Shown: piece after piece, positions 12,737-54,753 of the stretch | How the letters are laid out: each line of letters begins with the position of its first letter | Numbering within the stretch: position 1 is the stretch's first letter | NCBI GenBank assembly: GCA_903899985.1 | Contig: CAIULL010000099.1 | Location: forward strand, 1 to 64,000 | Reading direction: 5' to 3' | DNA length: 64,000 nucleotides | Source: an uncultured Schlesneria sp. | Lineage (GTDB): Bacteria; Planctomycetota; Planctomycetia; Planctomycetales; Planctomycetaceae | Made by a program: the position numbers and the translations under genes | Notes under the pieces: generated by a model | Told to the model about the DNA's origin: nothing | The model's database searches: none | What the model saw: only the letters and a program-made list of their open reading frames with translations

Positions 12737-12909
12737 CCAAAGTAGCCATCATCGCTCCGCGTGATGAGCATCCGTCGGAAACGATCCAAGCGTTGCCTTA
12801 ACCTCGTTCTTAATATTTCTTTTGAATTCCTGATTCGAAAAGATGCCGATTGATATTCGCAAGGTTCTCGAACAATGCTCATCACGCGGAGCGATGATGG
12901 CTACTTTGG
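12737..12909. mobile_element. 173-bp element with 35-bp perfect terminal inverted repeats
   Basis: Bases 12737-12771 and 12875-12909 are exact reverse complements (35 of 35), separated by 103 bases. The ends read CCAAAGTAGCC and GGCTACTTTGG. No clear target duplication is visible in the flanks. A minus-strand frame (12749-12979) crosses it and contains a protein-like stretch (EFKRNIKNEVKATLGSFP), so it could carry a gene fragment. Size and perfect ends fit a MITE-like non-autonomous element; a long hairpin between the convergent flanking genes is the alternative. Confidence 0.6.
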
Positions 12910-13019
12910 TCTGAGCAAAGCCTCTCTGAAGTCTGCCACGACGCACTTTTAAAGAGCTTAGGTGAACCAAAGATTGCAAACCCTGGCCACCCGAATTCGC
13001 GAACGAGAACCAACGCGTT

Positions 13020-50051: not shown

Positions 50052-50475
50052 TTTTAAACCGATATGAAATGGCTTCGGCGACTTCTATTCAAAGTCTTCT
50101 CTTCCATCCTGCCAACCTCACATCGCCGCGAAAATTGGTGTGAGAGTTCGCATGAGTTCGCGCGACTTCGACCATTTTTCATAATTCATTGGCTTCTGGC
50201 GACCGTTCCCCATTTTTCCATCATTAATGAGTTCACCCGATTTCGCGTGAATTCACCAGAGTTCGATTTAGTTGAAATCCCATCTCTCTATCAACTCAGG
50301 CGAGCCGCGTCAGCCCACGGCATGCCTGGACTGTTTTTATATATGTTTCGTGGTTAAAACTCTTCTCGTGATAAGGTTGCGGGCGAAGCCCTCGTCAGGC
50401 GATTCGTCAGATTCGTGGTCAAAACTCTTTTGCGTTTATCTGTCTGTTTCAGTGAGCATCTGTGGCGATGTCTCT
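50052..50475. other. Intergenic region, convergent genes
   Basis: 424 bases with no gene. A 14-base segment, CGTGGTTAAAACTC at about 50350 and CGTGGTCAAAACTC at about 50413, is repeated with one change. Several GAGTTCGCG/GAATTCACC-like words recur at 50140-50270 but do not form a clear repeat. Confidence 0.45.
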
Positions 50476-51729
50476 TTACTTGCCCTGGTCCGATCTTGAG
50501 GGATCGAAGTTGAAATCTTCCATCGGCACAAAACCCAATTTGTCGTCGTAGGCATAAGATTTTTTCGTGGTCTCGTCATATTTCCGATCAGCGTATTTCA
50601 GACCGAGCGTGACCAGTTCGAATTCGGCTGCCGCGATCGGCTGGTTGAGAGACTCCGTTTCGATCTTGAGTGTTCGAGAGTGTGCAAATGTGCTCCTGGA
50701 CTCGACTTGGTCAGAGATTTGACTGGTCTGCAACTCACACGGTACGAACTTCTCGTCAATTTCCGTGTATTTGATTGTGCGCCAGATATTCGGGTCCCCT
50801 TTCAGCGTTTGCGTGTACCGAGTGACGTTGTAGCCGACCTTTCCATCGAACTGATAAATCGAACTCAATAGCGTTAGCCCAGGTTTTCCGTAAACGAGTG
50901 TCACGACGGGAGGTTCTTCCGCAGTTGTGTAAAGCCGAGCATATTGTTTGCTGAGTGTCGTGTCTCTTTCTGATCCCTCTCCGCGAAGATGAGCGGCTAT
51001 TTTTCCAGCGTAATTTGCAAAGAATTGCGACGAAGGGCTGTTGAATGAAACACTGCTATCAGACCCGAAGCATTCGAGCAGATTGATCAGCGAAGGAGTG
51101 ATCCCGTTGCGTGCGGTCGTGACAAAAGCGACACGTGCTTTTGGAAAGATTTTGTCCTCAAGTCCCGGTTTCGGGATACGTGTCAAAAAGCGATCGGGGC
51201 TGAATTCCACCACCTGCACGGTGTCGAAAACAGTGAATGTTTTCGGCGATGGGTAAATTCGGCGATGTCGATATCCAGAGACCGGGTCCCAGAAATACTC
51301 GAAATCGCTCGGCTGTTTCAGGACTCGGTATCGTTTGTTGGTCTGATCCAGAAGGAATTCTGCTGTTCCTTCTCTGAGGTACCAGTATCCCTCTTTGGCT
51401 TGAAGCGTCTCCCGAGCCTGGGCAATTTTCTCGTCCGGGAACTGAAATTCCTTAAACTGATCGCTTCCAGGGTTTTGGGTGGACGTTGGATTGTCCTTGG
51501 TGGAGTAGTCGGAATCTCGGTATTCGCACTTTCCCTTCCATGTTTGGATGCCCTCCTGATTCCGCCTGATTTGTTTTGAGATGCGGTCAAGCGTGGAGGT
51601 CAACCGTTCCCCGGTCATTTCCTGCCCGTATTGATCGACGTCTTCCGCCATCACATGGCAAGAAAATCGTTCGTGTACGATGAATACCAACAGTGTCAGC
51701 AATAAGTTTCGAATCGGACGTGACTGCAT
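50476..51729 (-). CDS. Secreted hypothetical protein, LolA-like
   Basis: A 417-residue protein with an N-terminal hydrophobic signal (LLLTLLVFIVHERFSCHVMA). The body is mostly beta with long amphipathic strands and may be an outer-membrane lipoprotein carrier (LolA)-type sheet: GYWYLREGTAEFLLDQTNKRY, split by turns. Secreted proteins of this size and plan are common in planctomycetes, with no known role. The 1.9 kb upstream of it holds no certain gene. Confidence 0.6.
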   Translation of the reverse strand: MQSRPIRNLLLTLLVFIVHERFSCHVMAEDVDQYGQEMTGERLTSTLDRISKQIRRNQEGIQTWKGKCEYRDSDYSTKDNPTSTQNPGSDQFKEFQFPDEKIAQARETLQAKEGYWYLREGTAEFLLDQTNKRYRVLKQPSDFEYFWDPVSGYRHRRIYPSPKTFTVFDTVQVVEFSPDRFLTRIPKPGLEDKIFPKARVAFVTTARNGITPSLINLLECFGSDSSVSFNSPSSQFFANYAGKIAAHLRGEGSERDTTLSKQYARLYTTAEEPPVVTLVYGKPGLTLLSSIYQFDGKVGYNVTRYTQTLKGDPNIWRTIKYTEIDEKFVPCELQTSQISDQVESRSTFAHSRTLKIETESLNQPIAAAEFELVTLGLKYADRKYDETTKKSYAYDDKLGFVPMEDFNFDPSRSDQGK

Positions 51730-51994
51730 GGGTGCGTCTCAACGAGAAAAGGTGACATGATGATAGACGTTTTGAGTGACGACATACCAGGAATTTCCAA
51801 CCCGGCAAAGCCGGTTCATGCGAGTCTTGCGACTGGCTTAAAATAAGATCATCACTCGCGCGTTGACATCGAACGCGACGTAAGACGAAGAGGAGAGCGT
51901 TGGTCGGTCGCCCGTGCCGGACCAGCCGACGCGCGCACAATGGGCTCGCGTCCCATGAGACAATGTTGATCTAACAAACATTTTTTATTTTCTA
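51730..51994. other. Intergenic DNA before the AT-rich promoter
   Basis: No gene seen. A CCGG-caaag-CCGG type hairpin lies near 51799-51812. Base composition changes abruptly to AT-rich at 51970. Confidence 0.45.
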
Positions 51995-52024
51995 TTGACT
52001 TTTTTGTTGTATTTTTGTGATAAT
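51995..52024 (+). promoter_or_regulatory. Near-consensus sigma-70 promoter
   Basis: TTGACT at 51995-52000, an 18-base spacer, and GATAAT at 52019-52024 with an extended -10 TGT before it. It lies in a 60-base AT-rich island, the clearest promoter in the window. Transcription would run rightward, starting near 52031, into a structured leader, a 44-codon frame and the tandem-repeat array. Confidence 0.75.
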
Positions 52025-52292
52025 ATTAGTGCTGAGGTGTTTGGCAAGAGCGTTGGCCCCGTAAAGAGTGAATTTGCCGGAATACGCCGCTTTGCTCGCG
52101 TGCGTTTTTAACGTCCCAACAGAGGCCGCGGGTGATCCGTGGGGGTTCGTTGCTTGTCGGTCATCTGCGACGGCATTTTTTCGTGCTTTCGAACTTTCGT
52201 GTTTTCGTGATCCTCATTGTCTACCAGTCGCAGGAATTGCAGACGAGATCAAATCACGAAACTTTGAAATCACGAAAAGGAGAGAGGCGAAC

Positions 52293-52427
52293 ATGCGAGA
52301 GATCTTGGGGCGTACACCAGTCTCCAAGGTTCTGGCGGAGCTTCGAATGCTCGGTTCACGTTGTGGGCTGTCAACCGGTATCAATTTGGTCAAATTGGCC
52401 AAGTTCAAGTATGCAAAAAGCCTATAA
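52293..52427 (+). CDS. Possible 44-residue leader protein before repeat array
   Basis: A short frame from the ATG at 52293, with AAGGAGAG ideally placed nine to ten bases upstream. It reads MREILGRTPVSKVLAELRML and ends in the first, partial repeat at KFKYAKSL. It is basic and helix-like. The good ribosome-binding site and upstream promoter argue it may be translated; no family is known. Confidence 0.4.
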   Translation: MREILGRTPVSKVLAELRMLGSRCGLSTGINLVKLAKFKYAKSL

Positions 52428-53512
52428 AACACGGAACTTGGCCAACTCCGCCAACCTGGTCAACTTTTTTCGATGTCCTCATGCGAGTTCAACAACTTGT
52501 TCCACGCTGAGACGACACAAGAGGATCGAAGTCGGTCAACTTTGCCAACCTGGTCAAATTCAAAAACCCGAACAAAAGCCTGCAAAACAGGGAACTCCGC
52601 CAACTTGGTCAACTTTTTTTTGATGTTCTCGTGCAAGTTCAACGACGTGTACCACGCGGAGATCCGGCGAGAGGATCGAAGTTGGTCAACTTCGCCAACC
52701 TGGTCAAATTCAAAAACCCGCACAAAAGCCTACAAAACAGGGAACTGCGCCAACTTGGTCAACTTTTTTTCGATGTTCTCGTGCGAGTTCAACGACGTGT
52801 ACCACGCGGAGATCCCGCGAGAGGATCGAAGTTGGTCAACTTTGCCAACCTGGTCAAATTCAAAAACTCGCACAAAAGCCTGCAAAACACGGAACTCCGC
52901 CAACTTGATCAACTTTTTTCGATGTTCTCGCGCGAGTTCAACGACTTGTTCCACGCGGAGATCCCGCGAGAGGATCGAAGTTGGTTAACTTTGCCAACGT
53001 TGTCAAATTCAAAAACCCGCACAAAAGCCTGCAAAACAGGGAACTCTGCCAACTTGGTCAACTTCTTTCGATGTTCTCGTGCAAGTTCAACGACGTGTAC
53101 CACGCGGAGATCCCGCGAGAGGATTGAAGTTGGTCAACTTCGCTAACCTGGTCAAATTCAAAAACTCGTACAAAAGCCTGCAAAACACGGAACTCCGCCA
53201 ACTTGATCAACTTTTTTTCGATGTTCTCGTGCGATTTCAACGACGTGTACCACGCGGAGATCCGGCGAGAGGATCGAAGTTGGTCAACTTCGCCAACCTG
53301 GTCAAATTCAAAAACTCGCACAAAAGCCCATAAAACAGGGAACTCCGCCAACTTGGTCAACTTTTTTTGATGTTCTCGTGCAAGTTCAACGACTTGTTCC
53401 ACGCTGCGATCCCACAAGAGGATTGAAGCTGGTCAACTTTGCCAACGTGGTCAAATTCAAAAACATGAACAAAAGCCTATAAAACATGGAACTCCGCCAA
53501 CTCTGCCAACTT
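52376..53512 (+). repeat. Tandem array, about 7.6 copies of a 149-150 bp unit
   Basis: Anchoring on GATCGA/GATTGA, copies begin at 52525, 52674, 52824, 52973, 53122, 53272 and 53421, with partial copies at both ends. The unit length differs by one base because a T-tract varies. Each unit holds a self-complementary AAGTTGGTCAACTT, three TGGTCAA words on one strand and a T6-T8 run. Frames stay open on both strands through the array, but since 149 is not a multiple of three the frame shifts from copy to copy; a normal repeat protein is unlikely. Inner copies are more alike than the two edge copies, as in arrays kept uniform by recombination. Confidence 0.9.
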
Positions 53513-53658
53513 GATCATCTTGATATCTGGATTTCAATGAGCCGTCGTGTTTGAGGTTTCGGTGGGCGTTCGAAATGGCGAAGAGTTTGAATTCGTTTCC
53601 AAGACCACTATGATTCAGATACGAATGATTTCGTCCCACCGCTACAGAAAGTCCTGCC

Positions 53659-54753
53659 GTGAGCCAACTTGCCGAACTCGCCGCCAAAGCCAAATCACAA
53701 CTTGATGCCCACACCTATGAAAACGTGCAGTGGCATTTCCATGAATCGACCGGAAGCCCGTTCTGGCTCGAAAAAGCCAAAACATACAAGTTTGACCCGC
53801 TGAAGGAGGTCAAATGCTTCGATGATCTGAAGAAGTTCCCTCATTTCGAAGACGAATGGCTGCGAGGGGGCCCGATCAGTCGTTGGATTCCAAAAGGCCT
53901 TGCAGGCAAGCCAGCGTACGTGTTTGAGACGGGTGGTACGACGGGCATTCCCAAAAGCCGCATGGTGATTGAAGATCACTGGATCGACTACGAGAATTTC
54001 AGTGACACTCTGCCCGACGAATATTTTCCTCGAGGTGCCAACTGGCTGATGCTGGGACCTTCGGGCCCTCGCCGATTGCGTCTGGCTGTCGAGCATCTGG
54101 CTCAGTACCGCGGCGGAATCTGTTTCTGCGTCGATCTTGATCCTCGCTGGGTGGTTAAACTGCTGAAGAAGGGGAAGATTCAAGAGGCTGAAGACTACAA
54201 AGCACATGTGATTGACCAGGCTGTCACGATCCTGTCGGCCAACCACAACATTCAATGTGCGTTCATGACGCCGAAGTTATTGGAAGCCCTGGCCATGCGA
54301 TTGCTCGACGACGGAACGAGCATTGCCGAATCGGGGATCAAGGGGATCTTCGCCGGGGGAACCGAGTTCACTCCTCAATGGTATCGTACCTGTCGCGAAG
54401 AATTGCTTGGACCGGACGTGTATATCACTCCGACCTATGGCAATACCTTGATGGGGCTTGCCTGCGGAAAGCCTTTTGATCCTGCGGACAACTACAAGAT
54501 CACATACTACGCTCCACAGCCGCGGGCGGTGATCGAAACGGTTGAGTTTAAGGATTACAACCAAGTTGTTGGTTATGGACAGACCGGCCGCGTGAAGCTG
54601 TACACGATGACCAAAGAACTGTTCATCCCCGGTTTCATGGAACGGGATGAAGGTGAACGCGAAAAGCCTCATGAAAAATTCCCCTGGGACGGCATCAGCG
54701 GTACTCGACCATTCCATGAGTATGCAAAAACAACCACCGTTGGGGTTTATTGA
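53659..54753 (+). CDS. ANL-superfamily adenylate-forming enzyme, PaaK/LuxE-like
   Basis: A 364-residue enzyme with the ATP-binding loop FETGGTTGIPKSR (residues 89-101), IFAGGTEFTPQW, and ITPTYGNTLMGLACG as in phenylacetate-CoA ligases. It is about 60 residues shorter than PaaK and lacks an evident C-terminal lid Lys, more like LuxE. It would activate a carboxylic acid as adenylate. The aldehyde dehydrogenase 97 bases downstream is a likely partner. Confidence 0.78.
   Translation: MSQLAELAAKAKSQLDAHTYENVQWHFHESTGSPFWLEKAKTYKFDPLKEVKCFDDLKKFPHFEDEWLRGGPISRWIPKGLAGKPAYVFETGGTTGIPKSRMVIEDHWIDYENFSDTLPDEYFPRGANWLMLGPSGPRRLRLAVEHLAQYRGGICFCVDLDPRWVVKLLKKGKIQEAEDYKAHVIDQAVTILSANHNIQCAFMTPKLLEALAMRLLDDGTSIAESGIKGIFAGGTEFTPQWYRTCREELLGPDVYITPTYGNTLMGLACGKPFDPADNYKITYYAPQPRAVIETVEFKDYNQVVGYGQTGRVKLYTMTKELFIPGFMERDEGEREKPHEKFPWDGISGTRPFHEYAKTTTVGVY

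Follow-up and report, generated by a model that had tools for sequence, protein, structure and literature searches.

BrickBuilt of Porphyromonas gingivalis is a minisatellite inside a MITE, reported to consist of a leader, 23-nt tandem repeats and a tail, to be present in 19 intergenic copies and to possess promoter activity (PMC4596501). boxA is known upstream of rRNA and CRISPR arrays (PMC7862264), and GTAG-tagged REP elements have been reported in Planctomycetes (PMC3733652).

The locus analysed here lies in the window, a 64,000-nucleotide stretch from the genome of an uncultured Schlesneria species (G000; G001–G006 denote other Schlesneria genomes and G015 another genus). Its family shares with BrickBuilt that it is multi-copy, intergenic and narrow in host range, that a leader, tandem repeats and a tail follow each other and, by prediction, promoter activity. 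It differs in that the repeats of BrickBuilt are 23 nt long and its ends are small inverted repeats (PMC4596501), whereas the Schlesneria units measure 144–201 bp and their 23-bp box, P, has no inverted copy; the family furthermore has this box phased to a promoter, a boxA-like word and several ordered hairpin modules. The succession of promoter, boxA-like word and long untranslated repetitive DNA recalls rRNA leaders and CRISPR loci (PMC7862264). Unlike rRNA operons, however, the Schlesneria loci have no Rfam match and are dispersed by the dozen, and antitermination would be ascribed to them by analogy. In contrast to CRISPR arrays, whole units repeat and there are no unique spacers; since the spacers repeat along with the units, the arrays are not CRISPR. 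Module C of the family consists, by eye, of GTAG and a palindrome on the reverse strand and thereby resembles the REP/RAYT elements (PMC3733652), whereas cores B and E are longer and tandem, and in the window's own genome the Y1 transposase matches have no core B in the 1.5 kb around them. Like the large ornate RNAs GOLLD, ROOL and OLE, the family would encode long structured bacterial RNAs, the transcript being predicted from sequence; unlike them, its unit is modular and repetitive instead of having one fixed fold, again with no Rfam match.

The array and its surroundings in the window

The feature lies in a 1.9-kb gap between two divergent ORFs (Table 1). The 417-aa gene is found at this position in G000 and G004 only, and the downstream gene in all 15 Schlesneria genomes. 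A home-made codon-usage gene caller predicted no gene between 51729 and 53659, in agreement with the sequence-only reading that no ordinary gene explains these 1.5 kb. That reading had also named the promoter in front of the array the clearest sigma-70 promoter of the window, which is a fair description: seven sites of the 64-kb window reach 10 of 12 hexamer matches, so that it is tied with six others, and it is alone in having the TG of an extended −10. The same TTGACT-18-GATAAT stands at the counterpart locus of G004, where the sequence is 73% identical from 51993 onward and the proposed arrangement of promoter, leader and array recurs. The complementary words noticed earlier in the leader are real; they form one inverted repeat, module A, which belongs to a dispersed family with copies elsewhere in the own and related genomes.

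The 44-codon ORF, noted earlier for its fine ribosome-binding site, does not look gene-like. Its counterpart in G004 carries one 1-nt and one 9-nt indel, codon differences are mostly amino-acid-changing (about 12, versus 5 silent ones, by hand count on the alignment), a Pfam search of the ORF gave no match, and its start region with the ribosome-binding site is, by eye, the junction of two dispersed modules. The promoter-like site of the downstream gene lies outside the array, and on visual inspection 8 of the 12 genomes compared have it too. Further family pieces were seen in the window: one comprising core E, repeats and a Y-like hairpin (50052–50475, minus strand) between the 417-aa gene and a GFO/IDH/MocA-type gene, and an intergenic inverted pair of module U (12737–12759 and 12887–12934; E 1.5e-8 and 2.2e-4).

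Table 1. Features of the locus and its neighbourhood, in window coordinates
Feature	Position	Strand	Basis
Core E and adjacent 9-bp-type repeats, far side of 417-aa gene	50155-50216	-	profile E 9.7e-14
417-aa ORF	50476-51729	-	no Pfam family
Sigma-70-like promoter TTGACT-18-GATAAT, TG before -10	51995-52024	+	hexamer matching
Module Q 3' fragment without boxA-like word	52117-52155	+	weak profile match, E 7.6e-4, 14.7 bits
Module A, TTTCGTG/CACGAAA inverted repeat, dispersed family	52177-52281	+	profile E 3e-28
44-codon ORF, judged non-gene	52293-52427	+	ORF list, G004 alignment, Pfam
First core B, least altered, long stem kept	52374-52472	+	core motif and fold
Tandem array, 149-150 bp units	52444-53502	+	TRF: period 149, 7.1 copies, 90% match
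Further core B motif starts	52574, 52724, 52874, 53023, 53172, 53322, 53471	+	core motif
Promoter-like site of downstream gene, TTGAAT-16-TATGAT, outside array	53587-53614	+	hexamer matching
364-aa ORF, downstream gene	53659-54753	+	sub-threshold AMP-binding match (Pfam)

The array of near-identical 149–150 bp units is confirmed by TRF and by motif, which gives eight occurrences of a roughly 90-bp core, termed core B, at spacings of 158, 150, 150, 149, 149, 150 and 149 bp. Copy-number difference and homogenisation, the marks of a minisatellite or VNTR, are both found, with eight cores in G000 versus four, at 159-bp spacing, at the same place in G004. The inner window units A2–A6 are 89–96% alike, and a deletion of about 10 bp is common to A2–A7, whereas A1, A8 and the units of G004 do not have it. 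Divergence is greater in the edge units A1, A7 and A8, A1 being nearest to unit B3 of G004 (0.88 versus 0.87 to its best mates in G000); mean unit identity is 0.85 within G000, 0.84 within G004 and 0.81 between the two. Homogenised inner units with diverged edges represent the pattern of expansion and homogenisation from inside. A profile search of the 15 Schlesneria genomes finds a core upstream of the downstream gene only in G000 and G004; the 13 others include G001, with only 466 nt of upstream sequence, and G003, with none. In G001 a single decayed core is discernible there by eye only, and none by profile among the ten cores listed. The refuting condition named earlier, absence of the array from close relatives together with random drift between copies, thus gives a mixed result: an array in G004 and homogenised inner units on one side, and on the other no core by profile in the 13 further genomes, two of them with little or no upstream sequence. 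Three of the eight units were folded in silico: the first is predicted to fold strongly (−27.2 kcal/mol) and two inner units weakly (−10.7 and −13.5 kcal/mol).

A dispersed family of ordered modules in Schlesneria

Array, core and leader repeat each belong to dispersed families, and the window copy is, judged by its sequence, a decayed one; both points had escaped the sequence-only reading. With a 501-base query from the array we obtained 66 matches on 31 contigs (contigs counted by hand) in the own genome, three of which are the window array itself. Among 59 genomes searched as relatives seven match, namely the own, five further Schlesneria and one of another family, in which the match covers 31 bases. 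When genome_contigs (84,980 species), which may omit records of the own genome, was searched by pattern, 28 stretches were returned, all from uncultured Schlesneria in four MAGs. A 65-core profile of core B, applied to 150 candidates per genome, counts at least 130 copies in G000, 145 in G001, 147 in G004, 111 in G005, 129 in G006 and 12 in G002, and no core B in the other nine Schlesneria genomes. The search for the unit in related planctomycetes, suggested earlier, thus finds the core in the own genome and, of the 14 other Schlesneria genomes, in 5. Most of these genomes are draft assemblies, and several arrays end at contig ends; in G000, arrays reach the ends of contigs C81, C143, C164 and C238, so that copy numbers in this draft genome are underestimated. 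The periods of the fetched B arrays range from 144 to 201 bp, each array having its own. In G006 (L068–L073) core B occurs as a variant of its own, often as two cores 53 bp apart and with no P box, and these cores overlap ORFs of 220–285 aa by a simple ORF call.

A predicted gene lies within 400 bp on the T side of 33 of 57 B clusters and on the other side of 1 of 36, figures which omit the clusters with no predicted gene in the stretch (10 of 67 and 31 of 67, respectively). Two of the 67 clusters overlap a gene predicted by the home-made caller, and the other shared modules sit on the gene-poor side of B, opposite the T side. Rfam 15 gave no match at gathering score in the window or in 14 loci, the best sub-threshold hit (E 0.045) being to a plant-type microRNA model. 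Among the matches listed by a search of the open-licence literature on Schlesneria or Planctomycetes repeats, noncoding RNA, boxA and REP, the family is not described.

A better-preserved locus spans about 1.3 kb, seems to be free of genes and comprises the P box, 18 bp, a sigma-70-like promoter, a TTGATCTTTGACA segment, the TTTCGTG repeat, core E and the core B array. P is a near-invariant 23-bp box, GAGCACCTTCCAAACGTTAAGAA, which with up to three mismatches occurs 38 times in G000, 49 in G005, 49 in G001 and 62 in G004 and is absent from the 11 other Schlesneria genomes; the reversed pattern gave 0 in all 15. Among 392 genomes drawn from the phylum, the own genome holds the box and the 391 others do not. 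The figures below refer to 79 P sites with up to four mismatches from fetched loci; many of these loci were fetched because B is present, which makes the proportion containing B too high. Of the 25 sites that were added through the search for P, 23 contain one or more of Q, A, E and B (hand count).

Conservation starts abruptly about 6 bases 5′ of P. A promoter with at least 9 of 12 matches lies within 75 bp of P at 60 of the 79 sites (13.6 in shuffles), the spacer measures 17 bp in 61 of the 75 sites that reach at least 8 of 12, and most −35 hexamers begin 17–19 bp past the box. TTGAC is found 10–30 bp past P in 62 of 79 sites (2.2 when shuffled), and TGTCG follows it after 31 nt in 42 of the 48 sites having both words. 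The fixed-distance placement of P upstream of the promoter resembles that of the sites of class I activators. P is never covered by a predicted gene, the nearest gene being a median of 1271 bp away (43 loci; 20 on the same strand, 23 on the other). Among the 85 neighbour proteins of P loci the largest cluster numbers five; a gene family linked to the loci was dismissed because the neighbours are diverse.

Module Q, with 51 copies among the 79 P loci, holds the highly conserved TTGATCTTTGACA, each base reaching at least 85%. Similar words occur in rRNA leaders (TGATCTTTGAAAA in G004, GATCTTTGAAAA in G002): G004 has TGATCTTTGAAAACACGGTTGGA 259 nt before 16S, G002 has GATCTTTGAAAACATGGTTGGA at 231 nt before 16S, and G015 has GTTCTTTGACAATTTGG in both rRNA operons; in the own MAG no 16S was found. 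From their position and the E. coli consensus, we take these words to be boxA. Downstream of P and on its strand the boxA-like word is exact at 28 of 79 sites and present with up to one mismatch at 42, with 0 for four controls; at two mismatches the count is 55 of 79 (controls 0–2), some of these being a different, related word. A 21-base form occurs genome-wide 29, 35, 35 and 49 times in the four P-box genomes and at most once in each of the other 11. In G000, 15 of the 29 sites have a same-strand P box within 600 bp upstream and none downstream, and 14 have no upstream P box. As in a boxA locus, the family presents a sigma-70-like promoter upstream on the same strand (60 of 79) and the word in the leader; the window copy has a promoter-like site and lacks the word.

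The main modules keep their order and strand. By first occurrence, Q precedes A in 13 of 13 loci, E in 36 of 36 and B in 38 of 38; A precedes E in 14 of 15 and B in 15 of 15, E precedes B in 38 of 41, and C precedes B in only 7 of 29. All profile matches of Q (51 of 51), E (79 of 79) and C (47 of 47) lie on the P strand. For A and B, being palindromic, the strand is uninformative, and the small modules X, T and U are found in either orientation. In nine pairs of loci from different species the two members have an orthologous neighbour in common, and one of these pairs has such neighbours on both sides. In the six such pairs having boxA in both members, identity is 0.90 in P and 0.94 in boxA versus 0.63–0.74 around, the between-species values for P and boxA being inflated because both were found by similarity; the pair L219/L229 aligns poorly, with a P identity of 0.70. 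At locus L117, two copies of a further module, V (GGGACAGGCACC type; 2217–2258 and 2818–2859), lie 3′ of a Y1 transposase gene (match 1501–1839), which hints that module V is a REP-type element of this transposase.

The pair counts draw on 23 Y matches out of 37, on 28 Q stretches out of 54 and, for B, on 65 of the 76 cores that are non-redundant among a total of 98; the B alignment omits the G006 cores and L050. Hairpin Y has 14 double-change cells versus 2.7 in shuffles, indicative of covariation, and hairpin Q 12 versus 4.5. The B stem shows no convincing covariation beyond shuffles (82.7 versus 82.2% paired), and a structured-RNA model builder found no consensus pair in B, so that the resulting model R1 is a sequence-only one; a separate fold with other scoring gave the B stem. 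Since the B stem lacks covariation support, a folded B RNA is not established. The idea that the T run of B belongs to an intrinsic terminator was discarded, as no terminator-like site was found there on the plus strand and such sites show no clear excess over shuffles. An integron attC site, whose consensus did not seem to fit, was set aside. A CsrA sponge acting through the GGA of core B stays a mere conjecture: GGA is invariant in core B (65 of 65), but the invariant word of core E is TCGAA and its GGA varies.

Candidate RNA loci and competing explanations

We regard it as evenly balanced whether the 1.5 kb of the window are a decayed member of a family, with some 40–60 loci per genome in four closely related Schlesneria species, that encodes long untranslated RNAs. 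This reading suits the facts best, since the box, the promoter and the boxA-like word go together with a common strand and order, and there is no gene for them to serve. From these features we infer transcription, a regulator, antitermination and a scaffold or sponge role. A shared regulator would bind the P box at a fixed distance upstream of the sigma-70 promoter, and RNA polymerase would begin the transcript right past the −10. The boxA of module Q, about 270 nt downstream, could then load Nus factors as in rRNA leaders and shield the transcript from early termination, so that read-through of A, E and B would yield an RNA ending in near-identical repeats, possibly a multi-site scaffold or sponge. 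Unequal recombination would multiply or shrink the B units and homogenise the inner ones.

In the window the box-plus-promoter profile gives no match, neither P box nor boxA is found, module A is strong and Q weak; G005 has, upstream of the same downstream gene, a P box (2 mismatches) and a Y hairpin and no array. The window copy is therefore read as decayed, its promoter surviving and its B unit multiplied, and perhaps all that is left today is a repeat that expands locally beside the remnant of a promoter. Several findings count against RNA loci: conservation sets in just before P with the sharp edge that a mobile element would have, little more than half of the P loci have the boxA-like word with at most one mismatch (42 of 79), the B stem lacks covariation, and the window copy lacks P and boxA. 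So do the 14 of 29 boxA sites of G000 with no P box upstream, the lack of a terminator-like site at the T run of B on the plus strand, and the irregular placements, with C ahead of B at 7 of 29 loci, A behind E at 1 of 15, and X, T and U in either orientation.

The main rival, a serious one which we consider possible if rather doubtful, is a non-autonomous, MITE-like mobile element with an internal minisatellite and promoter, like BrickBuilt, that spread through the genome, the modules being its parts or later insertions. The dozens of intergenic copies, the abrupt 5′ boundary, the narrow host range and the internal tandem repeats would suit it, and BrickBuilt, with its promoter activity and 19 intergenic copies, provides a precedent (PMC4596501). 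However, no inverted P copy with up to seven mismatches lies within 2.5 kb downstream in any of the 79 loci, so that P lacks the partner of a terminal inverted repeat. In addition, at least nine locus pairs share an orthologous neighbour between species, and transposition needs neither a boxA nor a promoter phased at 18 bp. The Y1 transposases also speak against it: 0 B cores lie within 1.5 kb of the 11 matches in the own genome, and for this lack of association a RAYT origin of B was rejected as well. Such an element may nevertheless carry these signals, which makes it compatible with RNA loci.

A local, functionless satellite, made up of palindromic repeats from several families that built up in intergenic DNA, with one unit amplified through unequal recombination, appears improbable; it would account for the homogenised inner units, the diverged edges, the eight versus four copies, the B stem without covariation and the weakly folding inner units, but not for the way in which Q, A, E and B follow P and promoter, strictly in order and strand, in four species. 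Still less credit is due to a DNA-level array of binding sites for a nucleoid or regulatory protein. CAACTT words recur by eye in each core with a periodicity of about 9 bp and the array adjoins the promoter region, yet promoter and boxA-like word lie on one strand and the words vary between copies. The decoy of TGGTCAA sites contemplated earlier is not supported, as that word varies between copies as GGCC, GGTC, GACC and TGCC. A repeat protein or small-peptide gene we hold to be very improbable: forward ORFs of 171 aa traverse the units, but with units of 149 and 150 bp the frame changes along the array, the periods of other B arrays run from 144 to 201 bp, and the 44-codon ORF is disrupted in G004 and without a match in Pfam. 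Both were dropped for frame shifts and lack of conservation. What survives of the non-protein function originally proposed is thus the exclusion of a repeat protein and, for the family, a favoured role at the RNA level.

If the RNA-locus reading is true, the pairing of a common promoter box with a boxA-like word at dozens of repeat loci would be an unusual use of antitermination. Only tentatively, as a suggestion we rate on the unlikely side, might the family represent a class of bacterial genes not seen before, in which dozens of dispersed, co-regulated long noncoding RNAs, antiterminated through boxA, made of the same ordered hairpin modules and ending in amplifying arrays of RNA units, form one regulon that arose recently in one Schlesneria clade. 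The family would allow a test of whether regulated repeat RNAs are maintained in bacteria or whether rRNA-type transcription signals have been captured by a repeat element, and its arrays let satellite-like homogenisation be followed across sister bacterial species.
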